Source: Alphaproteobacteria bacterium (GTDB taxonomy: Bacteria; Pseudomonadota; Alphaproteobacteria; Micropepsales; Micropepsaceae). Taken from it: a DNA stretch of 64,000 nucleotides. The stretch spans positions 1 to 64,000 of the forward strand of contig JAJPIX010000040.1 in assembly GCA_021324545.1 (NCBI GenBank), written 5' to 3'. Each line of letters opens with the position of its first letter. The first letter of the stretch is position 1. Shown here piece after piece: positions 30,377 through 53,513 of this stretch. A program made the position numbers and the translations under genes. The notes below the pieces were generated by a model that made no database searches, was not told where the DNA came from, and was given only the letters and a program-made list of their open reading frames with translations.

Positions 30377-32236
30377 TTGCCGCGCAAGCTGACCGCCATC
30401 CTGTCCGCCGACGTTGTGGGCTACAGCCGCATGATGGAGGCCGATGAGCCGGGCACGCTGGCGCGCCTGAAGGCCAACCGCGCCACGATCTTCGAGCCCC
30501 AGGTCGCCGCCCATGGCGGGCGCATCGTCAAGCTGATCGGCGACGGGACGCTGGCCGAATTCGCGAGCGTCGTATCCGCGGTGCAGTGCGCGCTGGCGAT
30601 CCAGGCCGAAACCATCGAAGCGGAAGCACAGGCACCGGAGTCACGGCGCATCCATTACCGCATCGGCGTCAACCTGGGCGATGTGATCGTCGAAGGCGAC
30701 GACATCTATGGCGACGGCGTGAACGTGGCCGCCCGCATCCAGGCGCTGGCCGAGCCGGACGGCGTGACCATTTCGGCAAGCGTGCGCGACCACATGGACG
30801 GCAAGGTCGAAGCCGAATTCAGGGACATGGGCGAACACACGGTGAAGAACATCGAGCGGCCCATCCGCGTCTTCGCCGTGAAGGCGAAAACAAAGGCTGC
30901 CCGGACGTCGCGGCTTTCGATCTGCGTTCTGCCTTTCGCCAACATCAGCGACGACCCGCAGCAGGAATATTTCAGCGACGGAATCAGCGAAGACATCATC
31001 ACCGACCTTTCCAAGGTGTCGGCGCTGGGCATCATCGCGCGCAATACCGCCTTCCAGTTCAAGGGCAAGAGTGTGGACATTCCGCAGATCGCCCGCCAGC
31101 TGAAGGTGAGCCACATCCTGGAAGGAAGCGTGCGCAAGGCCGGCGCAAGGCTGCGCATCACCGCCCAGCTGATCGACGGCGGCAGCGGCGAGCATGTGTG
31201 GGCCGAGCGTTACGACCGCAATCTCGACGACATTTTCGCGCTGCAAGACGAGATTTCCGAAGCCATCGTGAAGGCGCTGAAGCTGAAGCTGCTGCCGGAA
31301 GAAAAGAAGGCCATCGAGAAGCGCGGCACCAGCAATGCCGAAGCCTACAATCTCTATCTGATGGCGCGGCAGAATTACGTGATCGGCAACGAAGGCTATT
31401 CCAACCGCGCCGAAGCCATCGTGCGGCTGTGCAAGCGCGCCACGGAGATAGACCCCAATTACGCGCAGGCCTGGGCGCTGATGGCGCTGGGGCAGATGAT
31501 TCTGCGTTTCACGCACGGCATCAAGACCGACGACGGCCTGAAGGCGGTGGAGCACGCGCTTTCGCTTGATCCCAATCTGGCGGAAGCACACGCGATCAAG
31601 GCGCGCATCCTGTCGGATCTCGGGCGCACGGAAGAGGCCAACGCCGAAATCGCAAGCGCGCTCAAACTCGACCCCGAATCCTACGAGGTGAACAAATCGG
31701 CGGCGCGGCTGAGCTTCCGCCAGAGCCAGATGAAAGCCGCCGCGCATTATTTCGAAAAGGCCACTGCGCTGATGGAGACCGATTTCAGCTCGCCGCTCAT
31801 GCTGATGACCTGTTACGGCGCGACCAAGGACCGCGACGCGCTCCTGCGGGCGGCGCGCATCACCCTGGAACGGTCGGAAAAGACGCTGGCGCAGGATCAG
31901 AACAATGGCGCGGCGATTGCCGCCGGCACCAATGCGCTGGCGGTGCTGGGCGAACCGGACCGCGCCAGGGACTGGATGAACCGGGCGTTGCTGATCGATC
32001 CCGACAACATGAACATGCGCTACAACTTCGCGTGCACGCTTCTGACGCAGCTGCGCGACAACGACACGGCGCTGGAGATGCTGGGGCCGGTTTTCGCCAA
32101 ATGGAACAGCGGATTCCTGAAGCACGCCAAGGCCGATCCCGACCTTGATTCGATCCGCGACGATCCGCGATTCAAGGCCATGCTGGCTTCGGCGGAAGCG
32201 CGCGTGGCCCAGGAAGCCCAATCGGGCGAAAGCTGA
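30377..32236 (+). CDS. Class III adenylate/guanylate cyclase with TolB-like and TPR domains (copy 1)
   Basis: TTG start; RKLTAILSADVVGYSRMM, KLIGDGTLAEF, DIYGDGVNVAARI; RLSICVLPFANISDDPQQEYFSDG; TPRs. Confidence 0.9.
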   Translation: MPRKLTAILSADVVGYSRMMEADEPGTLARLKANRATIFEPQVAAHGGRIVKLIGDGTLAEFASVVSAVQCALAIQAETIEAEAQAPESRRIHYRIGVNLGDVIVEGDDIYGDGVNVAARIQALAEPDGVTISASVRDHMDGKVEAEFRDMGEHTVKNIERPIRVFAVKAKTKAARTSRLSICVLPFANISDDPQQEYFSDGISEDIITDLSKVSALGIIARNTAFQFKGKSVDIPQIARQLKVSHILEGSVRKAGARLRITAQLIDGGSGEHVWAERYDRNLDDIFALQDEISEAIVKALKLKLLPEEKKAIEKRGTSNAEAYNLYLMARQNYVIGNEGYSNRAEAIVRLCKRATEIDPNYAQAWALMALGQMILRFTHGIKTDDGLKAVEHALSLDPNLAEAHAIKARILSDLGRTEEANAEIASALKLDPESYEVNKSAARLSFRQSQMKAAAHYFEKATALMETDFSSPLMLMTCYGATKDRDALLRAARITLERSEKTLAQDQNNGAAIAAGTNALAVLGEPDRARDWMNRALLIDPDNMNMRYNFACTLLTQLRDNDTALEMLGPVFAKWNSGFLKHAKADPDLDSIRDDPRFKAMLASAEARVAQEAQSGES

Positions 32237-34098
32237 TGCAGCGCAAGCTGACGGCGATCCTTTCGGCCGACGTCGTTGGCTACAGCGGCCTGATGGAGGC
32301 CGACGAGGCCGGCACGCTGCAGAAGCTGAAAGACAATCGCGCCCGGATTTTCGATCCGGCCGTCGCGGCCAACGGCGGGCGCGTGTTCAAGCTCATGGGC
32401 GACGGCGCGCTGGCGGAATTCGGCAGCGTGATGGCGGCGGTGAATTGTGCCATGGCGATCCAGACGGAAACCGAGAAGAGCGACGCCTATGCCGGAGATC
32501 GCATCCGCTATCGCATCGGAATCAATCTGGGGGAAGTGATCGTCGAAGGCGACGATATCTACGGCGAAGGGGTGAACGTGGCCGCGCGCATCCAGGCGCT
32601 GGCGCCGGTGGGGGGCGTTGCGATTTCCAAGGCCGTCCGCGACCAGATCGACGGAAAGGTGCCCCATGCCTTCGAGGACATGGGCGAACATTCGGTGAAG
32701 AACATCGAGCGCCCGATTCATGTATTCTCCGTCCACGCGTCCACCCCGGCCAAGGCTGAAGGTTCCAGAATGAGCTCACCCGGCAGGCTTTCCATCTGCG
32801 TTCTGCCGTTCGTGAACATGAGCGGCGATGTGGAACAGGAGTATTTCAGCGACGGCATCAGCGAAGACATCATCACCGATCTTTCCAAGGTGTCGGCGCT
32901 GTCGGTGACTGCGCGCAACACCGCTTTCACCTACAAGGGCAAGAGCCTGAAAATCCCGCAGGTTGCGCGCGAGCTGGGCGTGAGCCACGTGCTGGAAGGC
33001 AGCGTGCGCAAATCCGGCGGGCGCGTGCGCATCACGGCCCAGCTGATTGACGGGGCCGCCGGCGACCACATCTGGGCGGAACGTTACGACCGAGACCTCA
33101 ACGACATTTTCGCGCTGCAGGACGAAATCTCCGAAGCCATCGTGAAGGCGCTGAAACTGAAGCTGCTGCCGGAAGAGAAAAAGGCCATCGAGAAGCGCGG
33201 CACCGACAATGTGGAGGCCTACAATCTTTACCTGATGGCGCGGCAATACAGCGTGACCGCTAGCCTTGGCGATCCGCGCATGGCCGACGCCATCCTGCGG
33301 CTGTGCCGGGGAGCCCTCGCGCTCGATCCCAACTATGCGCGCGCCTGGGCCCTGATCGCGGTGACGCAGGTCAACCGGCGCTTCTATATGGGGCTTGCCG
33401 GCGAGGACGGGCTTGCGGCCGCCGAACGCGCCATCGCGCTCGATCCCAACCTCGCGGAAGCCCATGCCGCGAAAGGCGTCGTGCTGACGTTCAGCAACAA
33501 CCCCGCCGCGGCAAAGGCCGAGATCGAAAAGGCGCTGGCGCTCGATCCGGAATCCTACGAGGCGACCAAGGCGGCCGGGCGGCTGGCCTACACCGTGCGC
33601 GACTATGACACCGCGGTCCGCAATTTCGAGAAGGCGGCCGAGATCATGGACACGGATTACTGGTCATGCGGCATGCTGCTCAGCACCTACCGGGTGAAGG
33701 GTAACAAGGAGCTGGCCCGGCGCAACGCCGAGCGAACGCTCGCCCGCACCGAACGGATCCTGGCGCAGGACCCCAACAACGGATCGGCGATGAGCTTCGC
33801 GATCGACGCGCTGGCCACGCTCGGCCAGGCCGACCGGGCCAAGGAAATGATGAAGCGCGCGCTGCTGCTCGACCCCGACAATGTGAACATGCGCTACAAT
33901 CTGGCCTGCTCGACCCTGATGCAGCTGCACGATGTCGATGCCTGTCTCGATCTTCTGGAGCCGCTGTACAAGGTGATCTCCCGCGCGCTTCTGAACTGGA
34001 CGAAGAGCGATGCGGACCTCGATTCCATCCGCGACCATCCCCGGCTGAAAGCCATGGTCGCCGAGGCCGAACAGCGGCTGGCCGAAAGCGGCAGCTAG
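32236..34098 (+). CDS. Class III adenylate/guanylate cyclase with TolB-like and TPR domains (copy 2)
   Basis: ATG overlaps the upstream TGA (TGATG); same architecture and near-identical mid region. Confidence 0.9.
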   Translation: MQRKLTAILSADVVGYSGLMEADEAGTLQKLKDNRARIFDPAVAANGGRVFKLMGDGALAEFGSVMAAVNCAMAIQTETEKSDAYAGDRIRYRIGINLGEVIVEGDDIYGEGVNVAARIQALAPVGGVAISKAVRDQIDGKVPHAFEDMGEHSVKNIERPIHVFSVHASTPAKAEGSRMSSPGRLSICVLPFVNMSGDVEQEYFSDGISEDIITDLSKVSALSVTARNTAFTYKGKSLKIPQVARELGVSHVLEGSVRKSGGRVRITAQLIDGAAGDHIWAERYDRDLNDIFALQDEISEAIVKALKLKLLPEEKKAIEKRGTDNVEAYNLYLMARQYSVTASLGDPRMADAILRLCRGALALDPNYARAWALIAVTQVNRRFYMGLAGEDGLAAAERAIALDPNLAEAHAAKGVVLTFSNNPAAAKAEIEKALALDPESYEATKAAGRLAYTVRDYDTAVRNFEKAAEIMDTDYWSCGMLLSTYRVKGNKELARRNAERTLARTERILAQDPNNGSAMSFAIDALATLGQADRAKEMMKRALLLDPDNVNMRYNLACSTLMQLHDVDACLDLLEPLYKVISRALLNWTKSDADLDSIRDHPRLKAMVAEAEQRLAESGS

Positions 34099-42403: not shown

Positions 42404-43351
42404 TCATCTGTCTTCCCGCATGAGCGCGCGGACATGGGCCTGGGCCGACCGGCCCAGCGCCGGCAGGTCATAGCCGCCCTCAAGAGTCGAAACCACACGG
42501 CCATCGCACAGGCGGTTGGCGACGGCGCACAGCGCGCGCGTGACCCAGAAGAAATCGCCTTCCTGCAGGTTCATCTGCGCCAGCGGATCGGCAGCATGCG
42601 CATCGAACCCCGCCGAAATGAAAATGAATTCCGGCGAAAATTTTTCGAGCGCCGGGAAAATCGCGGTTTCACAGGCTTCGCGAAACGCATCGCCGCCGGA
42701 AAACGGCTCGAGCGGCGCGTTGACGATGTTGCAGGAAATGCCCGTCTCGCTTGCGTTTCCCGTACCCGGATAAAGCGGCGCCTGATGCGTGGATGCGTAG
42801 AAAAGATTTGCGTCGTTCCAGAAGATGTCCTGCGTTCCATTGCCGTGGTGAACATCAAAATCCACGACCGCGACGCGATTTAATCCGTATGCGGATCGTA
42901 CATGCAGCGCGCCGATCGCAACATTGTTGAACAGGCAAAACCCCATCGCGCGGCCGCGCGGGGCGTGATGCCCGGGGGGCCGCACGGCGCAAAACGCAGA
43001 GCGGCATTTATTCTGCATCACGAGATCGGCCGCATCGGCGACCGCGCCCGCGGCATACAGGGCCGCCTCTGCCGAGCCGGCCGAAACAACCGTGTCGGGA
43101 TCGATCTGCACGAAGCCGCCGCCCGATGAGGCAGCCTTCGCGGCGCGAAAGATGGCCTCTACATGGGATTCGTCATGCGCCCGCAGCAGGCTTTCCCGGC
43201 TGGCCTTGTTGGCGGCAATCCAATTAAGTGACTGAAATTCCTCTGTTTTCAAGCTTGCCAGAATCGCCTCAAGCCGCGCCGGGCGCTCTGGATGGCCAGC
43301 CGGTACCACATGGCCGAGACACGCAGGGTGTGTGATCAGGGCAACAGACAT
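42404..43351 (-). CDS. Histone deacetylase-family protein
   Basis: HPERPARLEAILASL, RPPGHHAPRGRAMGFCLFNNVAI, VVDFDVHHGNGTQDIF, SAGFDAHAADPLA. Confidence 0.93.
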   Translation of the reverse strand: MSVALITHPACLGHVVPAGHPERPARLEAILASLKTEEFQSLNWIAANKASRESLLRAHDESHVEAIFRAAKAASSGGGFVQIDPDTVVSAGSAEAALYAAGAVADAADLVMQNKCRSAFCAVRPPGHHAPRGRAMGFCLFNNVAIGALHVRSAYGLNRVAVVDFDVHHGNGTQDIFWNDANLFYASTHQAPLYPGTGNASETGISCNIVNAPLEPFSGGDAFREACETAIFPALEKFSPEFIFISAGFDAHAADPLAQMNLQEGDFFWVTRALCAVANRLCDGRVVSTLEGGYDLPALGRSAQAHVRALMREDR

Positions 43352-43621: not shown

Positions 43622-43666
43622 GACAGCTGCCATATGAGGGCAAGCGTGTCCGTTGTGGCAGTTGTC
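43622..43666 (+). promoter_or_regulatory. Leader hairpin upstream of TonB-dependent receptor
   Basis: GACAGCTGCCA / TGGCAGTTGTC arms (11 bp as RNA with one G-U), 23-nt loop, ending 28 nt before the GTG start. Confidence 0.5.
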
Positions 43667-43693
43667 GTTACGACCGAACCAAGGGGGTTCCAA

Positions 43694-46600
43694 GTGTATA
43701 AGACCAATCTTAATCAGCGCAGCCTGCGCTCCGCTCTGTTGCTTGGCGCGTCGGCCGCCGCCGCCGTCAGCCTTGCAGCGCCCGCAATGGCGCAAGAGCA
43801 AGTCGAAACCGTGGTGGTCACGGGTTCGCGCATTCCGCAAACCGGCCTCTACAGCACCAGCCCGGTGACGGCGGTTGGCCAGCAGGAAATGAAACTTGAG
43901 GGCACGACCAACGTCGAAACCCTCATCAACAACCTGCCGGAGGCCTTCGCAGACTTCAACGACACGTCGTCGAACGGCGCAACCGGCACGGCTTCGGTCA
44001 ATCTCCGCGGCCTCGGCGCGGCACGCACCCTCGTGCTGATCGACAACAAGCGCATGGCGCCTGGCGATCCGGGCTTCCCTGTGGCCGACTTGAACCAGAT
44101 CCCGGCAGCCCTCGTGGACCACGTTGAAGTCCTGACCGGCGGCGCCTCGGCCGTGTATGGTTCGGACGCTATCGCCGGCGTCGTGAACTTCATCATGCGT
44201 CACGACTTCGAGGGCGTGGAAATCGACGGCCAGTACAGCGTTGACCAGGCCGGAAACGACAGCGAGCCGTTCTCGAAATGGAATGCGGCAACCGGCTTCA
44301 AGGCTGCGCCCAAGAACTGGTGGGGCGGCGCGACAGCTGACGCAACCATCATGCTGGGCGTGAACACGGACAACGGCAAGGGCAACATCACGGCCTATCT
44401 CGGCTACCGCGACACGCAGGCGGTGCTGGAAAAGAACCGCGATTTCTCGGCCTGTTCGTTGACGGCGAAGGGCATCCTGTCGTTCGGCGAACCCGCCGAT
44501 GGCGGCCTTGCCTGCGCCGGCTCGTCGAACTTCAACCGGTGGATTTCGCTGGACGACTATTATGCCAGCCAGAACTACGATTTCTTTGAGCGTGGCACCG
44601 GCGCCCCCGGCAGTGGCTTCTTTGAGACCTATGCCGGAACGCCGGACGAGAAGTTCAACTATGGACCGCTGAACTATCTGCAGCGTCCTGACGTTCGCTA
44701 CACCGGCGGTTACTTCGCGCACTATCAGATCAACCCCGCCGTGGACGTCTATTCGAGCTTCATGTTCACGGACAACCACACGGTTGCGCAGATCGCGCCG
44801 GGCGGCTTCTTCCTGGGCACGTATTTCAACGTGAACTGCGACAACCCGCTGATGACGGCGCAGGAAAACGCCGCCCTCTGCGGTGAAGCAGGCGCGGGCA
44901 AGTACACGACCGGGCCGATGGCCGGGCGCTTCAACGGCAGCGGCAACATCACGCCGGGTCAGGCGCTGATTGCCGTCGGCCGTCGCGACATCGAAGGCGG
45001 CAACCGCATCGACGACCTGCGCCACACGTCCTACCGCATCGACCTCGGTGCAAAGGGCGATCTGGGCAACGGCTGGAGCTACGACGTTTACGGCCAGTAC
45101 GGCATCGCCCTGTTCGACACGCGCAGCTTCAACGACTTCTCGAAGACGCGCGCGGCCAATGCGATGCAGGTCGATCCGGTGACCGGCCAATGCTTCAATG
45201 ACGTGGCGAACGGCTGCTCGCCGATCGACATCTTCAACGGCATTGGTTCGATCAACAACACGCCGCAGGGCCTCAACTATGTTCAGATCACGAACATGGA
45301 AACGGGCTACACCGAGGAACAGATCCTCAGCGGTTCGTTGACGGGCGATCTGGGCCAATACGGCATCCAGTCGCCGTGGGCGAAGAACGGCGTCGGTATC
45401 GCGCTTGGTTCGGAGTGGCGCGCCGAGTATCTGCAGCTGAATCCCGACTACGAGTCGCAGATCGGCGACTCCTACGGCGGCGGCGGCAAGATCCTCCCCG
45501 TGCCAAAGTCCGGCTTCAACGTGACGGAACTCTTCGGCGAAGTGCGGGTGCCTGTGGTTCAGGGCCAGCCCTTCTTCGAAGACCTGACGCTGAACGGCGG
45601 CTACCGCTATTCGTCGTACAACACGGCCGGCCACGTCGCGTCGTACAAGTATGGCGCGGAATGGCAGCCGATCGACGACTTCCGTCTGCGCGCCAGCTTC
45701 CAGCGTGCGGTGCGCGCACCGAACGTCCTGGAACTGTTCTTCCCGAACAACGTCGTTCTGTTCGGCGGACAGGACCCGTGCGCAGCCGGCGCTGATCCGG
45801 CTCAGATCGCGCGGTGCCAAGGGGCTCCGGGTGCGGCAGCCGTGCCAAATGCAGGCTCCGGCATCCTTACCTGCCCGGCCTCGCAGTGTAACCAGCAGAC
45901 CGGCGGTAACGTGAACCTCCGGCCGGAAACCTCGGACACGCGGTCCTTCGGCATCGTGTTGACGCCCACCTTCTTCCAGGGCTTCACCGCGACGATCGAC
46001 TACTTCGACATCAAGGTGGACGGGTTCATCTCCGGCATTTCGCCGACACTGACACTGGCAGAATGCTATGGCGCATCGGCGACAGCCGCGAGCCAGGCCT
46101 TCTTCTGCCCGTTCGTGCACCGCGATCCGGGAACGCACTCGATCCACACGCCCAACGGCTTCGTGGCGGCGACCAACGCCAACACGGGCTTCCTGAGCAC
46201 CAAGGGCGTCGATTTCGAGGTGAACTACCAGGCGGATCTGGACGATTGGGGCATGACCGGCGACGGTTCGTTGTCGTTCAGCTTGCTGGGCACGTTGCTC
46301 AACTCCCTGGTCACCGAGCCGCTTCCGGGCCTCGGCACCTACGACTGCGTCACCCTCTACGGCACGGTCTGCGGCACGCCGAATCCCAGGTGGCGTCACA
46401 AGTTCCGCGTCACATGGTCTTCGCCGTGGGACATCGACTTCTCGGTTGCCTGGCGCCACATGTCGAGCGTGGACTTCGACCAGAACCAGACCAACCCGCT
46501 GCTTGGCGGTGGTCCGGCTGTCTGGCCGGGCTGCCCCGCCGGCACGTTGCATGGCGTTGGCGATTGCACGGACGCCCACATCCCGTCGTACGACTGGTTC

Positions 46601-46801
46601 GACATTTCGGCGAACTGGACGGTGCGCGACGGCGTGGAAATCCGGGCCGGCGTCAACAACGTCTTCGACAAGGAGCCGCCGGTCATGGACAGCAATACGC
46701 TGGCCGTCTCGTCGCCTCCGTTCGGCAACGGCAACACCTATCCGAACGTCTACGACGCTCTGGGCCGCACGATCTTCGTCGGCGCGACCCTCAAGTACTA
46801 A
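43694..46801 (+). CDS. TonB-dependent outer-membrane receptor, Cys-pair rich
   Basis: GTG start with AGGGGG RBS; signal peptide ending PAMAQ; plug motif VETVVVTGSRIPQ, LIDNKRMAPG, GGASAVYGSDAIAGVVNFI; C-terminal GATLKY. Confidence 0.95.
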   Translation: MYKTNLNQRSLRSALLLGASAAAAVSLAAPAMAQEQVETVVVTGSRIPQTGLYSTSPVTAVGQQEMKLEGTTNVETLINNLPEAFADFNDTSSNGATGTASVNLRGLGAARTLVLIDNKRMAPGDPGFPVADLNQIPAALVDHVEVLTGGASAVYGSDAIAGVVNFIMRHDFEGVEIDGQYSVDQAGNDSEPFSKWNAATGFKAAPKNWWGGATADATIMLGVNTDNGKGNITAYLGYRDTQAVLEKNRDFSACSLTAKGILSFGEPADGGLACAGSSNFNRWISLDDYYASQNYDFFERGTGAPGSGFFETYAGTPDEKFNYGPLNYLQRPDVRYTGGYFAHYQINPAVDVYSSFMFTDNHTVAQIAPGGFFLGTYFNVNCDNPLMTAQENAALCGEAGAGKYTTGPMAGRFNGSGNITPGQALIAVGRRDIEGGNRIDDLRHTSYRIDLGAKGDLGNGWSYDVYGQYGIALFDTRSFNDFSKTRAANAMQVDPVTGQCFNDVANGCSPIDIFNGIGSINNTPQGLNYVQITNMETGYTEEQILSGSLTGDLGQYGIQSPWAKNGVGIALGSEWRAEYLQLNPDYESQIGDSYGGGGKILPVPKSGFNVTELFGEVRVPVVQGQPFFEDLTLNGGYRYSSYNTAGHVASYKYGAEWQPIDDFRLRASFQRAVRAPNVLELFFPNNVVLFGGQDPCAAGADPAQIARCQGAPGAAAVPNAGSGILTCPASQCNQQTGGNVNLRPETSDTRSFGIVLTPTFFQGFTATIDYFDIKVDGFISGISPTLTLAECYGASATAASQAFFCPFVHRDPGTHSIHTPNGFVAATNANTGFLSTKGVDFEVNYQADLDDWGMTGDGSLSFSLLGTLLNSLVTEPLPGLGTYDCVTLYGTVCGTPNPRWRHKFRVTWSSPWDIDFSVAWRHMSSVDFDQNQTNPLLGGGPAVWPGCPAGTLHGVGDCTDAHIPSYDWFDISANWTVRDGVEIRAGVNNVFDKEPPVMDSNTLAVSSPPFGNGNTYPNVYDALGRTIFVGATLKY

Positions 46802-46824
46802 GACGGACGGTATCGACTTTCAGC

Positions 46825-46857
46825 AGCGGCGGCCCAAAAGGCCGCCGCTCTTTTTTT
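46825..46857 (+). terminator. Strong Rho-independent terminator after TonB-dependent receptor
   Basis: AGCGGCGGCC-caaaa-GGCCGCCGCT-CTTTTTTTG. Confidence 0.88.
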
Positions 46858-46885
46858 GCGCCGCCGGGCCGCATAGGTTGGCCCG

Positions 46886-48508
46886 ATGAATGGGCCTCAA
46901 CTGCCTGCGGTGCCTGACGCCATAACCACGGCGCTTGACGCCCGCGACATTCCCCGCGCGACCGCGCTGGCGTGCGAGGCGCTGGAGAAGGGCGTGGAGC
47001 ACCCTCTCCTTCTGAACCTGCGTGCCTATTGGCACGAGGCGAACGGCCGCGAGGCCGAGGCCTTCGCCGACCTCAGGCGCGCCAGCGAGCTTGCGCCCGA
47101 TGATGTCTCCATCCTCAACGCGCTGGGGCTTTCGCATGCGCGCGCCGGGCGGCTTGCCGAGGCGCTTGGCGCCTTTGACGCGGCCCTTCGGCTTCAGCCC
47201 GATTTCGGCCCGGCGCACTTCAACAGGGGCTGGGTTAGCGAGGATCTGGGCGAGCTTGATGCCGCCCGGAATGCCTTCGCGCGGGCAGCAGCCCTGAAGC
47301 CCGAGGCGGCAGAACCGTGGGCGCGGATTGCGGCGCTCGCCGCGCGGGCGGGCGAATGGGCCGCGGCGAAGGAAAACGCCGAGCGGGCCCTGCGCCTTGA
47401 TTCGGGCAACGCCACCGCCGCTCAGGCAATGGCGAGCCTTGAGATTGCCGCCGGCGAGGCAGCCGCAGCCGAGGCGCGGCTTCGGGCGCTTCTTGCGCGC
47501 GACGATCTTGGCCCGCTCGATCGGGCGGCCGCAGAAGGGCTGCTGGGCGATGCCCTGGACGGGCAGGATCGCATCGAAGACGCCTTTGCCGCCTATGGGC
47601 GGCGCAACGCGATCGTGCGCGAGCAGTATGCCGGGCGGTTTTCCGGCCCCGGTGTTCAAACCGTTCCCCAATATCTTGCCTGGCTGACGGAATGGTTTTC
47701 CCGACTTGCCGACGGCCAGTGGCTGGCGGCGGATGCCGAGCCGGACAGCACGGCACATGTCTTCCTGATCGGCTTTCCCCGATCGGGCACGACCCTTCTC
47801 GAAGAGATTCTGTGCGTCAATCCCGGCGTCGCGGCGACCCAGGAACGGGACGGGCTTACGGATGCGGTGCGCGACCTGATGGCCAAGCCGGCCGACCTGG
47901 AACGGCTGGCAGCGCTGCGCGGCGGCGCGCTCGCGCGCTACCGGCGGAGCTACCGCGCAAACCTCGCCGCGGCCGGCGTCAACGTCAACGCGCCTGTTTT
48001 GCTGGACAAGCAGCCCTACAACACGATCAAGCTGCCCGTCATCGTCAAGCTGTTTCCACGCGCGCGCATTGTTTTCTCCATCCGCGATCCGCGCGATGTG
48101 GTGCTTTCCTGTTACCGCCGCAGGTTCCGCATGAACCCGTCGAACTATGAGCTCCTGACGCTGGACGGCGCCGCGCGATTCTATGACGCGGTGATGCGGC
48201 TGGCCGGGCTTTACCGCAGCAAGCTGGCGCCCGGCATATTCGACTTCCGCCACGAGGCGCTGATCGCAGATTTCGAGGGCCGGATGAACGACGTTTGCGC
48301 CTTCACCGGGATCGGCTGGACCCCGTCCATGCGCGCGTTCGCCCAAAGGCCCAGGGCGCGCGCCATCGCCACGCCAAGCGCCCAGCAGGTGGCCGCGGGG
48401 TTGAGCGGACAGGGTATCGGTCAGTGGCGCCGCTACCGGCGGCAACTGGCGCCCATCCTGCCGATCCTGGCGCCCTGGGTGGAGGCGTTCGGATATCCGG
48501 CCGATTAA
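46886..48508 (+). CDS. TPR-containing sulfotransferase family protein 1
   Basis: N-terminal TPRs; PAPS-binding GFPRSGTTLLEEIL and FPRARIVFSIRDPRDVVLSCYRR. Confidence 0.9.
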   Translation: MNGPQLPAVPDAITTALDARDIPRATALACEALEKGVEHPLLLNLRAYWHEANGREAEAFADLRRASELAPDDVSILNALGLSHARAGRLAEALGAFDAALRLQPDFGPAHFNRGWVSEDLGELDAARNAFARAAALKPEAAEPWARIAALAARAGEWAAAKENAERALRLDSGNATAAQAMASLEIAAGEAAAAEARLRALLARDDLGPLDRAAAEGLLGDALDGQDRIEDAFAAYGRRNAIVREQYAGRFSGPGVQTVPQYLAWLTEWFSRLADGQWLAADAEPDSTAHVFLIGFPRSGTTLLEEILCVNPGVAATQERDGLTDAVRDLMAKPADLERLAALRGGALARYRRSYRANLAAAGVNVNAPVLLDKQPYNTIKLPVIVKLFPRARIVFSIRDPRDVVLSCYRRRFRMNPSNYELLTLDGAARFYDAVMRLAGLYRSKLAPGIFDFRHEALIADFEGRMNDVCAFTGIGWTPSMRAFAQRPRARAIATPSAQQVAAGLSGQGIGQWRRYRRQLAPILPILAPWVEAFGYPAD

Positions 48509-48586
48509 GCACGACGTTTGACGCAAGGAGTGCTAAACGGCCCCGAGGTGCTAGCATTGTGGAACGGGGTTCCGGAAACAGGACAA

Positions 48587-50236
48587 ATGGCGACCATCGA
48601 AACACGGCCCAGCGCGGAACAATGGGCTGCGGCCATCATCGGCGACATTTCCCAGGCCGTCGCGGCGGGCGACCTTGCCCGGGCGCAGCAGCTTGCGGGC
48701 GCCGCCATCATGCACGGCGTGCGGCATCCGACCTGCTTCAATGCCCGCGGGCTATGGATGCAGCAGACCGGGCGGCATGATCTGGCGCTGGAGGATTTTC
48801 AGCGGGCGCTGGCGCTGAAACCGAACGACCCCATCATTCTCAACGCCATCGCCATGTCGCTGCTGAAGCTGAACCGCGTTCCCGAAGCGGCCAAGGCGAT
48901 CGATGCGGCGATTGCGGCCGATCCGAACAACGCCCAGAGCCATTACCGCAAGGGGATCGTGGCGGCGACAGCCGGCAATCATGACGTGGCGCAGGCGGCT
49001 TACGAACGCGCCGTTGAAATCGACCCCAATCATGCCGAGGCCACAGCAAGCCTTGCCTCCATCGCGGCGCGCAAGGGCGAAGGCGACAAATCCCGCGCGC
49101 TCGCAAAGCGCGCCCTCGAACTGAAGCCACACCAGCCGACGGCGCTTCTGGCCGAAGCGATCGTGGACCTCGGCGAGAAGAAGTATGCCGACGCCGAGGC
49201 CCGCCTGAACCGGATTCTGAACGAGGGCTATCTCTACAACGAGGCGCGCTCGGCCGTGCTGGGCCTTCTGGGCGATGCCTATGACGGGCAAAAGCGTTAT
49301 GCGGAAGCCTTTGCCACTTATTGCAAGGAAAACGAAGAGCTGCGGCGCGAACACGGCCACCGCTTCGCCAACAGCCGCGGGGCCGACGCCGCCAGGAATC
49401 TGATCGCCTATTTCGAATCGACGCCGAAGGACATCTGGGGACCGCCCGATGACGGCGGTTCGCTTCCCGGCGCGCCGACCGAACATGTGTTCCTGCTGGG
49501 ATTCATGCGGTCGGGCACCACGCTGCTCGAACAGGTGCTGGCCAGTAATCCGCGGATCGTGGCGCTGGAGGAAAAGGGCCTGCTTCACGGCCTGGGCGAC
49601 GTGTTCATGACCAGCAATCTGGGGCTGGACGCCCTGGCCGCCATTCATGGCGAAGAACTGCGCCGCAATCGCGAGACCTATTGGCAGCGCGTGCGCAATC
49701 ACGGCGTGGACGTTGCGGGAAAAATCTTCGTCGACAAGCAGCCGCTCAACACCATCAAGCTGCCGCTCATCGCCAAATTCTTTCCGAAGGCCAAGATTCT
49801 TTTCGCGCTGCGCGATCCGCGCGACGTGGTCTTCAGCTGTTTCAGGCGGCATTTCCGCATCAATGTCACAATGTTCGAATTTCTGGATCTCGCCGATTCC
49901 GCACGCTTCTACGCTTCAACCATGCGGCTGGCCGAGCTTTATCGCGAAAAACTGCAGCTGGATCTGTTCGAGACGCGCTACGAGGAGATCGTGTCGAATT
50001 TCGAGGAACATGTGCGCGCGCTTTGCCGGTTCATCGGCGTGGAGTGGTCCGACAAGATGCGCGAGTTCAACAAGATCGCGCCCAATGTGGACATCCGCTC
50101 GCCCAGCGCCACACAGGTGCGCCGGCCGCTCTACAACGAGGGCATGGCGCAATGGCGGAAATACGAGAAGGAGCTCGCGCCCATTCTGCCCATCCTGCAG
50201 CCCTGGGTGGAGAAGTTCGGCTATCCGCCGGCCTGA
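48587..50236 (+). CDS. TPR-containing sulfotransferase family protein 2
   Basis: ATG start MATIETRPSAEQW; TPRs; GFMRSGTTLLEQVLASNPRI and FPKAKILFALRDPRDVVFSCFRR. Confidence 0.9.
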   Translation: MATIETRPSAEQWAAAIIGDISQAVAAGDLARAQQLAGAAIMHGVRHPTCFNARGLWMQQTGRHDLALEDFQRALALKPNDPIILNAIAMSLLKLNRVPEAAKAIDAAIAADPNNAQSHYRKGIVAATAGNHDVAQAAYERAVEIDPNHAEATASLASIAARKGEGDKSRALAKRALELKPHQPTALLAEAIVDLGEKKYADAEARLNRILNEGYLYNEARSAVLGLLGDAYDGQKRYAEAFATYCKENEELRREHGHRFANSRGADAARNLIAYFESTPKDIWGPPDDGGSLPGAPTEHVFLLGFMRSGTTLLEQVLASNPRIVALEEKGLLHGLGDVFMTSNLGLDALAAIHGEELRRNRETYWQRVRNHGVDVAGKIFVDKQPLNTIKLPLIAKFFPKAKILFALRDPRDVVFSCFRRHFRINVTMFEFLDLADSARFYASTMRLAELYREKLQLDLFETRYEEIVSNFEEHVRALCRFIGVEWSDKMREFNKIAPNVDIRSPSATQVRRPLYNEGMAQWRKYEKELAPILPILQPWVEKFGYPPA

Positions 50237-51531
50237 GGCCTTGCGGCGTTTTGCCGGTAATAGTCGAGCATGCCGTTCAGAAGCACGCGAATCAGATCGT
50301 GCTCGGCCGCGGTCAGATACGGATTCCAGATGTCCAGCATCAGGATCACGCGCAGCTGATCGCTGTCGTTCCAGGCTTCATGTTCGATCGTGTCATCGAA
50401 CACCCAGGCCTTGCCAACCTGCCATTCGCGCGTTTCATTGCCGACGCGGAAATAACATTTGCCCGGCACGATCAGCGGCAGGTGCGTGATCAGCCGCGCA
50501 TTGGTCGAGCCGGTATGGGGCGGAATGCGGGTGTGCGGCGCCAGAAGCGAGAAATTGACGGTCGGGCCGAGGTTCGGGATGTCCACCAGCGGCAGCTTCT
50601 CCAGCACCGCGGCCGTCTTTGGACAGCGCGCGCAATGTTCATCGATGCGCTTGCCGTCTTCATAAAGAAAATAGACGCTCCATTTGGGCGAGCGGTTGAG
50701 TTCCAGCCACTGGTTGACGGGCACATCATCCGGGCGGTTGATGTAGGGCCGGATGTCCCTGTCCTCTTCGTAGATCTTCAGAAATTCTTCGCGGATATCA
50801 TCGGTCGCGGCTTCGAGTTCCTTCAGCCACGGAAACTGCTTTTCATCATAGTACTGGATGGCAGGAACGGCGGGAACGTGCAGCAGCAGGGGCTGCTGGA
50901 CATACACTTTCTTCGCGCCGGTCGTCGCATCCTTGCATTGCTCGAAGCGGGAAAGGTCTTCGTCCTTGTGGCGGGCCCGGACGTCCCGCAGGCGGCTTTC
51001 GAGAAACTCTTCCAGCGCCGCGGCGTTCTCGCGCACGACGTCCCGCGCGTGCGTCAGCGGGCCCTTCAGGCCCTGCGGCGCATCCTCCAGCGAAGGGGCG
51101 ATGACAAGCACATCCTTGTAAACCTTCGCCGCCTGCCGTTTGTCCCCCAGCCGCTCCAAAAGCATCGCCTTCGACAGCAGGGCCGGATAGTAATAGGGGT
51201 CGATCGCGAGCGCGGCGCGGATAGCCGCCATCTCGGCCGCGGAATCGCCGAGCGCGCGATGGGCGAATGCGATATTGAGCGGGATAACGGAATTGTCGCG
51301 GGAAATCGTCGCCGCGCGTTCCAGCAGTGCAAGGGCCTTGCGCGGCTCCTTGCGGTAGAGAGCATGCTGTCCCAGATGCAAGAGCGCCGCAGGGTGATCG
51401 GGCGATGACTCCAGGACGCGCTGCCAGAGGGCGGCCGCCTCTTCCAGCCGGCCCGCGGCCATGGCGGCCGTAGCCTGCTGGCCCAACGCTTCGATGCTTG
51501 TCCCCTGGACGGCGCTCACCGCTTGCGACAC
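50221..51531 (-). CDS. TPR-containing aspartyl/asparaginyl beta-hydroxylase family protein
   Basis: GTG start; TPR N-terminus; NFSLLAPHTRIPPHTGSTNARLITHLPLIVPG...VGKAWVFDDTIEHEAWN. Confidence 0.9.
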   Translation of the reverse strand: MSQAVSAVQGTSIEALGQQATAAMAAGRLEEAAALWQRVLESSPDHPAALLHLGQHALYRKEPRKALALLERAATISRDNSVIPLNIAFAHRALGDSAAEMAAIRAALAIDPYYYPALLSKAMLLERLGDKRQAAKVYKDVLVIAPSLEDAPQGLKGPLTHARDVVRENAAALEEFLESRLRDVRARHKDEDLSRFEQCKDATTGAKKVYVQQPLLLHVPAVPAIQYYDEKQFPWLKELEAATDDIREEFLKIYEEDRDIRPYINRPDDVPVNQWLELNRSPKWSVYFLYEDGKRIDEHCARCPKTAAVLEKLPLVDIPNLGPTVNFSLLAPHTRIPPHTGSTNARLITHLPLIVPGKCYFRVGNETREWQVGKAWVFDDTIEHEAWNDSDQLRVILMLDIWNPYLTAAEHDLIRVLLNGMLDYYRQNAARPQAGG

Positions 51532-51618: not shown

Positions 51619-53403
51619 TCAATAGGCCTGGCCCGGCAGGTTTACGGCCCGCATCTCCACTCCACCGCGCGGCGTTTCGTTCAAAGCCCTGATCGCGATC
51701 CGGGCGGGCGGCGACGACATGATCGTCACCAGCCCCTGCATGGCGCGCATGGTGGCCGCAGACTGGCCAAACATGTTGCTGAAGGCCTGGAAAAAGCCCT
51801 TGGGCTGCGGATAGCGCTTGAAGACAGCCTGTTCGTTGGGGCCGATGCCGGCCAGTTTCTTGGCCTCGTCCACGGCCGTCCAGAAACCACCGAGCCGGTC
51901 CACAAGGCCGCGCGCTTTGGCATCGGCGCCCGTCCAGACGCGTCCCTTCGCGATGGCCTGCACCTGCGCCAGAGGAAGCTTCCGGCCCGCGGCCACCTTC
52001 TGCGTGAAGTCGGCATAAATCGCGTCGGCCTGGGCATTGAGATTGGCAAGCTGCTCGGGTGTGTAAGGCTCAATGCCGGAATTGAACAGCGCGTTCTTGC
52101 CCACCCCGATATCCTCGGCGGTCACGCCGATCAGGCCCAGAGTCTTGCCAACGGACACCTTGCCCGTGAGCACGCCGATGGAGCCTGTGAGCGTGCCCGG
52201 CTCCGCCACGATCTTGTTGGCGGACGAGGAGATGTAATAGCCGCCGGATGCCGCAAGCGAGCCCATGCTGATGACCACGGGCTTTCCCTTCGCTTGAGCC
52301 TTTTTCACCGCGTTCAGGATCTGGTCCGACGCGGTGACCGAGCCTCCGGGCGAATCCACGCGCAGCACGATCGCCTTGATGGATTTGTCGTCCGCAGCGG
52401 CGCGGATCGCCTGGGAAAGATTGTCGCCTGCGATGACCGTGTTTTCGCCCCCGAACGGGCTGGTTTCAACCTTGCCGTCCTGGATATCGCCGGCCGCCTC
52501 GATCAGCGCGATGTTTCCGCCCGATACGCCGATGCGCTGCTTCGTGTGCACATAATCGACAATATCGATGGCCTTGGCATCGGCGCCCGCGCGCCGCAGA
52601 GCCGCCCATTGCGCATCGTCGTCATAACCGATGCGATCGATCAGATGCGCCCTCAGGACGCTTCCGGCGAATTGCGGGCTCTGCTCGATGGCGGAAACGA
52701 TCGACTTCTGGTCCAGCCTGCGGTCGGAGGCGGCCTGCGCGGTGGCCACGTTGTACCACGACTGCAGGACTTCCTGTGTCTCTTCGCGGTTGGCGGGGGT
52801 GTAACCCTTCTCCATGAACATGTCGGCCGCACTCTTATACTCCGCGCGCTTGACGATTTGCGGCTCTGCCTGAATCTTGTCGAACAACCCGCGCAGGAAG
52901 ATCGCGCCCCCCGCGGTGCCCGCCGGTTCGAACGGGCTCTTCGGCTCCATCCAGATTTCGTTGGCGGAAGACGCGGCCAGATAGTCGCCCAAGCCTTCGG
53001 AGAAAAATCCCTGCGCGTAGGCGATCACGAATTTTCCGGACGAACGGAACCGCTGGATCGCCGCGCGGATCTCTTCGGCCTGCGCGACCGGCATGTCGGC
53101 GGAGCCGACGCGCATGAATACGCCTTTCACGCGATTGTCACGCTGGGCCGCATCGAGCCCGAGCACGATGTCCATCACGGTCGGACGATGGCTGCCGAAG
53201 CCAAACGGGCTGGGCGCCGATGAGTCCGCCATCGGTTGCCGCAGATCCATGCTCAGGATGATCTTGGGCGGCAGTCCATCGCCCTTGGCGAGCCCGATCA
53301 CGCCCAGCACGACGACGATCAGGACAAGCGCGAGCGCGATTTTGACAAAGCCGTTGAGGGTGCCGACGAGGATGGACCGGCACCAGCGCAGGAAGGCAAC
53401 CAT
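51619..53403 (-). CDS. sppA: Signal peptide peptidase SppA, 67K type
   Basis: Start MVAFLRWCRSILVGTLNGF; VLRVDSPGGSVTASDQI, SMGSLAASGGYYISSSANKIVAEPGTLTGSIGVL. Confidence 0.94.
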   Translation of the reverse strand: MVAFLRWCRSILVGTLNGFVKIALALVLIVVVLGVIGLAKGDGLPPKIILSMDLRQPMADSSAPSPFGFGSHRPTVMDIVLGLDAAQRDNRVKGVFMRVGSADMPVAQAEEIRAAIQRFRSSGKFVIAYAQGFFSEGLGDYLAASSANEIWMEPKSPFEPAGTAGGAIFLRGLFDKIQAEPQIVKRAEYKSAADMFMEKGYTPANREETQEVLQSWYNVATAQAASDRRLDQKSIVSAIEQSPQFAGSVLRAHLIDRIGYDDDAQWAALRRAGADAKAIDIVDYVHTKQRIGVSGGNIALIEAAGDIQDGKVETSPFGGENTVIAGDNLSQAIRAAADDKSIKAIVLRVDSPGGSVTASDQILNAVKKAQAKGKPVVISMGSLAASGGYYISSSANKIVAEPGTLTGSIGVLTGKVSVGKTLGLIGVTAEDIGVGKNALFNSGIEPYTPEQLANLNAQADAIYADFTQKVAAGRKLPLAQVQAIAKGRVWTGADAKARGLVDRLGGFWTAVDEAKKLAGIGPNEQAVFKRYPQPKGFFQAFSNMFGQSAATMRAMQGLVTIMSSPPARIAIRALNETPRGGVEMRAVNLPGQAY

Positions 53404-53513
53404 GGCAGATTCCCTTGCAATATCAACATCTTGATCGAACAGACACGACACCGCATCCGCCCGCCCACGATGTTATATGGGAAGGATGTTAAGGAAGGCC
53501 ACTCCCGCTCCGG

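Follow-up and report, generated by a model that had tools for sequence, protein, structure and literature searches.

A TonB-dependent receptor recurrently linked to TPR-fused, TPST-like sulfotransferases and an AspH-type oxygenase in Alphaproteobacteria

A TonB-dependent receptor (TBDR) gene, two tandem sulfotransferase genes (ST1 and ST2) and a convergent AspH-type hydroxylase gene, the three enzymes each fused to tetratricopeptide repeats (TPR), occupy positions 43634-51531 of the 64,000-nucleotide stretch analyzed here (the window; part of contig C34, JAJPIX010000040.1, of a Micropepsaceae genome), raising the question of whether these genes belong together and, if so, what the enzymes modify. 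RaxX in Xanthomonas is the main known case of tyrosine sulfation in bacteria; a recurrent set of a TBDR with enzymes resembling tyrosylprotein sulfotransferase (TPST) and AspH would provide a concrete, testable system for this modification and for why TonB receptors pair with cytoplasmic oxygenases (as in CciT-CciO), and would additionally assign a function to a large TPR-sulfotransferase family. An initial annotation, made from the sequence alone, had listed the four genes with their order and strands, all of which were recovered by coordinates and Pfam matches (Table 1), and had proposed that hydroxylation and sulfation act on a shared substrate recruited by the TPRs. The persistence of this gene set in relatives, across changes in gene order, suggests a so far undescribed route of chemical tailoring by bacteria, directed at such a receptor, at a partner of it or at its cargo.

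Recurrence of the linkage among relatives

The survey covered 96 genomes of the same family (the whole order in the collection) plus a sample of the class, with approximately 120 neighbourhoods annotated; the loci were picked by AspH or ST matches, and the raw counts therefore carry less weight than the comparison of paralogue clades and the genome-wide test described below. The window's genus commonly showed the order dxs-xseB-HDAC-TBDR-ST(1-3)-AspH-SppA, and other genera of the family carried TBDR< AspH> ST> PKHD>, TBDR> AspH< without ST, or TBDR< AspH> (arrowheads give orientation). Outside the family, the linkage was seen as OXY5< AspH< ST> TBDR< (L191), AspH< C23> TBDR< (L186) and AspH> TBDR< (L185), with loci L184, L187 and L188 linking only to distant TBDRs; overall, at least three other families and about eight gene orders were represented. 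In the AspH tree, a TBDR was nearby in 31 of 37 loci of one supported half, whereas the paralogue half had 1 such locus out of 11, and the TBDR-link label required 4 changes vs. 13.6 in shuffles. Enzyme-linked receptors were spread across all deep branches of the TBDR tree, and gain and loss of the linkage probably both occurred.

The genome-wide test considered five near-complete relatives, in which at least 18 of 34 full PF13469 domains (TPR-sulfotransferases) lay within 4.5 kb of a TBDR plug, at least 17 of them on the same strand; random placement (2000 runs) gave a mean of 2.2 and a maximum of 9 within this distance, and a mean of 1.1 and a maximum of 6 on the same strand. Full plug counts gave an expectation of 3.6, and binomial tests on the individual genomes gave P values of 0.06, 0.02, 0.003, 0.001 and 0.001, which are not independent because the five genomes share ancestry; genome G066 entered the binomial test with nine sulfotransferases (eight in the list), which is conservative. 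The adjacency occurred in both orders, TBDR-then-ST and ST-then-TBDR. These statistics rule out chance or artefact as the source of the linkage, and the association for which the initial annotation had suggested a neighbourhood analysis thus recurs beyond chance and persists across rearrangements. They also put numbers, for one receptor class (TBDRs), on an unpublished remark, cited in a review (PMC9372746), that genes for extracytoplasmic proteins are frequent neighbours of bacterial TPST genes.

The gap between the TBDR and ST1 holds a GC-rich 10-bp hairpin followed by a T-run, a strong intrinsic terminator (Table 1). Within the window and its relatives, a terminator-like hairpin was found in all 18 TBDR-to-ST gaps shorter than 300 bp, and 17 of these hairpins reached -16 kcal/mol or lower. 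Because this terminator divides the TBDR from ST1, the block is not one plain operon; a single plain operon of all genes is ruled out by the conserved terminator together with the convergent AspH gene. The terminator fits a receptor made in excess, with the enzymes presumably reached via read-through or a promoter of their own.

Related blocks carried further genes. Additions seen in L084, L088, L089, L092-L095, L097-L099, L101, L107 and L191 are TPR-containing 2-oxoglutarate (2OG) oxygenases of the PF13759 type (cluster 9), oxygenases of the PKHD/YbiX type (cluster 28) and a 330-360-aa divergent protein resembling sulfotransferases (cluster 23). The PF13759 type was considered as an equally general TBDR partner and rejected, as only 1 of 23 was near listed TBDR plugs in the five genomes (by eye); it looks like a local add-on. 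A small secreted-looking protein of 76-116 aa with conserved Cys (cluster 38), a possible partner or substrate that is absent from the window, lies just past AspH in L087 (6248-6598), L088, L089 and L095. In L108 (14300-17052) and L109, from one genus, a TldD/TldE-like protease pair, recognized by inspection, lies directly 3' of the TBDR in a TBDR-AspH pair without sulfotransferases.

Catalytic sites and folds of the three enzymes

The initial annotation had assigned the sulfotransferases to the cytosolic (SULT) type using 3'-phosphoadenosine 5'-phosphosulfate (PAPS). The PAPS sulfotransferase domains were borne out, and the quoted motifs (GFPRSGTTLLEE/RDPRDVVLS and GFMRSGTTLLEQ/RDPRDVVFS) were found in the sequence, but the assignment to SULTs was not, as the matches go to TPSTs. 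The best matches among PDB entries were tick TPST for ST1 and, across the whole domain, human TPST1 for ST2 (Table 1), with the next non-TPST matches at E-values of 8.2e-5 and 0.0011, respectively. The catalytic residues of TPST1 (R79, E100, K159 and S286; PMC5562738) align with R308, E329, K384 and S507 of ST2, which are conserved in 55/55, 55/55, 55/55 and 53/55 relatives. A separate search for related loci with ST2 gave mostly TPR cross-matches. In Foldseek, the AlphaFold model of ST2 (mean predicted local confidence, pLDDT, 92.8) matched OGT and SPINDLY in their TPR domains and TPSTs in the catalytic domain, with template-modelling scores to TPSTs of 0.61-0.74 depending on the target, and TPSTs were the only sulfotransferases among its 50 best matches. 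By sequence and predicted fold, the ST domains are therefore TPST-like rather than SULT-like, with TPST1/2 as the closest solved relatives.

The PAPS motifs and the catalytic Arg, Glu, Lys and Ser are common to the block's sulfotransferases, human TPST1/2 and bacterial RaxST; the block's enzymes differ in their fused N-terminal TPR arm and in occurring as two copies adjoining a TBDR, and their activity on Tyr is a prediction from sequence. The genome encodes a PAPS-forming kinase (APS kinase), and no signal peptide was seen by inspection on the sulfotransferases or on TPR-AspH.

The TPR-AspH match to human AspH runs over the length of the protein, including its TPR part. Its model (pLDDT 93.4) matched the human AspH TPR-Ox structures at 2.5e-18 in Foldseek; both domains match, whereas their relative placement differs, giving an overall root-mean-square deviation of ~19 Å. 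Mapped onto the iron, RXS and substrate-Asp-binding sites of human AspH (PMC6817910), the Fe ligands H339/H384, the RXS pair S328/R394 and H350 (the equivalent of human His690) were kept in 50/50 relatives, S328, R394 and H350 forming the predicted 2OG site. The TPR-oxygenase architecture and two-His iron site are thus common to both proteins, whereas the bacterial protein is without the endoplasmic reticulum anchor and has no known EGF-like substrate. The initial annotation had named missing active-site residues as evidence against its proposal; the catalytic residues were intact in these alignments, and dead enzymes are ruled out for the sulfotransferases and the hydroxylase alike.

Additional members of both families were noted. 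The genome's second PF05118 protein (L120:9229-9942, on contig C23) lacks TPRs, scores 121 bits to OlsC, is closer to OlsC/LpxO and has another TBDR 5 kb away. A further TPR-sulfotransferase of the ST1/ST2 family (L121:9915-11567, on contig C15) lies between infB and rbfA in a nusA-infB-ST-rbfA-truB-rpsO-pnp operon, as in about 20 relatives (L124-L143); up to three copies occupy this spot (L137, L143), with no TBDR nearby.

Candidate substrates and competing explanations

Tentatively, we favor reading the block as a receptor accompanied by cytoplasmic enzymes dedicated to modifying a protein, either the receptor itself or an exported partner. The two TPR-docked, TPST-like sulfotransferases (with PAPS as donor) and the TPR-docked, AspH-like 2OG/Fe(II) oxygenase would work ahead of Sec export, their likeliest target being the nascent receptor or else an exported protein that functions with it, and both marks might be placed on the same molecule. 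The TPR arms would hold an extended or loop segment, which the catalytic domain would sulfate (probably on Tyr) or hydroxylate, and the conserved terminator would keep the abundant receptor in excess over the catalytic enzymes. The nearest functional precedent, by analogy, is CciT-CciO, in which the TBDR CciT strictly requires CciO, a cytoplasmic 2OG dioxygenase whose substrate was not identified (PMC12004947). As in the block, CciT-CciO, PiuA-PiuC and Fiu-YbiX keep a TBDR gene beside a cytoplasmic Fe(II)/2OG oxygenase; however, that oxygenase is of the PKHD type (PF13640), seen only in some of our relatives, as opposed to the TPR-AspH type (PF05118), and no sulfotransferase is reported for these systems, where the block has two. 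A cytoplasmic bacterial tyrosine sulfotransferase modifying its target before export is known in RaxST, which acts on RaxX (PMC9372746, PMC6637879); neither a gene for a small RaxX-like peptide nor a type I exporter, both neighbours of RaxST, was found at 42-53 kb of the window. In the open-access literature, which leaves out most subscription papers, no published link between TBDRs and TPR-sulfotransferases was found; each part of the block is of a known kind, and neither their combination nor its recurrence turned up there.

Docking of a shared protein substrate by the TPRs, as initially proposed, is a reasonable expectation by analogy, considering that the TPR domain of human AspH binds substrate (PMC6817910) and that the closest solved sulfotransferases act on proteins. 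The intact enzymes and the recurrent linkage support the initial proposal in part; a Tyr signature on the receptor was looked for and did not appear. In an alignment of relatives, no Tyr or Asp/Asn site of the TBDR clearly tracked the enzymes; the best-differing columns were mostly Gly plus other residues, confounded by ancestry. The mean [DE]Y count was 5.0 in ST-linked vs. 5.25 in unlinked receptors, and an acidic-Tyr or Tyr signature as the sulfation site was accordingly rejected. Four loci (L159, L160, L161 and L163) carry an orthologous TBDR at the dxs-SppA position without either enzyme, so the receptor can presumably work unmodified. Some same-family TPR-sulfotransferases lie in the infB-rbfA operon, far from any TBDR. 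Finally, K666 and R688, which hold the carboxylate of the substrate Asp in human AspH (PMC6817910), are replaced by N326 and I348 in the window and mostly by M/F/L/V and I/V in relatives (hydrophobic or variable); an Asp/EGF-type activity is thus not supported, and the substrate side chain is probably other than an EGF-type Asp, with the oxygenase chemistry retained. All of these observations weigh against the preferred reading. The receptor remains a plausible substrate, and the fuller proposal, a general TBDR-tailoring pathway in which TPR-guided TPST/AspH-like enzymes mature an outer-membrane receptor, or a partner dedicated to it, through Tyr sulfation and side-chain hydroxylation in the cytoplasm, is speculative and on balance unlikely.

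The best-surviving alternative, which we likewise consider rather improbable, is that the enzymes act in the cytoplasm on the ligand taken up by the receptor (a siderophore, a peptide or some other import), building or degrading this cargo, with the TPRs only holding the enzymes together or binding a carrier protein. Modification of cargo has been proposed for PiuC/YbiX (PMC12004947), and PKHD/YbiX-type oxygenases occur in some related blocks; however, the ST domain resembles TPSTs and not small-molecule SULTs, long TPR arms occur in protein-modifying enzymes (OGT, SPY, AspH), and a biosynthetic or catabolic gene is absent inside the block.

Decoration of the envelope, with TPR-AspH as an LpxO/OlsC-like lipid acyl hydroxylase, the sulfotransferases acting on polysaccharides or lipids and the TBDR linked through a shared envelope function, is a weaker candidate and would be surprising. 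The PF05118 fold takes in both OlsC and LpxO, the ST domain is weakly similar to NoeE, and the substrate-Asp-binding pair of human AspH is missing. The NCBIfam scores of TPR-AspH, 106 bits to OlsC and 71.7 bits to LpxO, nevertheless stay well short of the curated cut-offs (450 and 500 bits), the similarity to human AspH takes in the TPR part, a fusion that sets the protein apart from LpxO and OlsC, and the separate TPR-less PF05118 protein described above suits a lipid role better.

Least probable, and largely refuted, is that a conserved dxs-xseB-TBDR-sppA locus gained unrelated TPR enzyme genes once and passed them on: flanking synteny in the genus is strong and several relatives have a TBDR there without the enzymes, but the roughly eight orders and orientations, the occurrence in other families and the other TBDR-ST pairs elsewhere in the genome speak against it.

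Layout of the block and its surroundings

The draft genome (2.7 Mb, 64% GC, 97% complete) encodes seven full TPR-type sulfotransferases, two PF05118 proteins and nine TBDR plugs. For the TBDR, which has Cys-paired loops and an NCDNP motif, the GTG start at 43694 is likelier than the ATG at 43634, having a better ribosome site and a signal peptide near the start. The 3' end of the convergent TPR-AspH gene overlaps ST2 by 16 nt.

Table 1. Features of the block and its flanking genes (window coordinates; values are E-values).
Feature	Position	Strand	Evidence
TonB-dependent receptor (TBDR), 1035-1055 aa	43634 (ATG) or 43694 (GTG)..46801	+	Pfam Plug 3.7e-21, barrel 4.6e-38; alignment of 56 relatives
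Intrinsic terminator AGCGGCGGCCCAAAAGGCCGCCGCT + T-run, TBDR/ST1 gap	46825..46849	+	10-bp stem, 9 GC pairs
ST1: TPR + TPST-like PAPS sulfotransferase domain, 540 aa	46886..48508	+	Pfam Sulfotransfer_3 2.8e-28, TPR_2; best PDB match tick TPST 7.7e-11
ST2: TPR + TPST-like PAPS sulfotransferase domain, 549 aa from ATG	48587..50236 (upstream TTG 48518 possible)	+	Pfam Sulfotransfer_3 3.5e-30; TPST1 2e-9
TPR-AspH: TPR + Asp/Asn beta-hydroxylase-family 2OG/Fe(II) oxygenase, 436 aa	50221..51531	-	Pfam PF05118 (Asp_Arg_Hydrox) 2.9e-47; human AspH 8.5e-32
Histone-deacetylase-like (HDAC) flanking gene, dxs-xseB-HDAC side; neighbour outside the proposed system	42404..43351	-	Pfam Hist_deacetyl 2.3e-94; synteny
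SppA-like S49 peptidase flanking gene; TBDR neighbour kept in many relatives	51619..53451	-	Pfam Peptidase_S49 1e-61; synteny

In agreement with the initial annotation, no convincing small gene was found inside the block on inspection, and the window holds no RNA families or tRNAs. Elsewhere in the window (30377-34098), two tandem proteins of ~620 aa have N-termini that appear, by inspection, adenylate/guanylate-cyclase-like (RKLTAILSADVVGYS).
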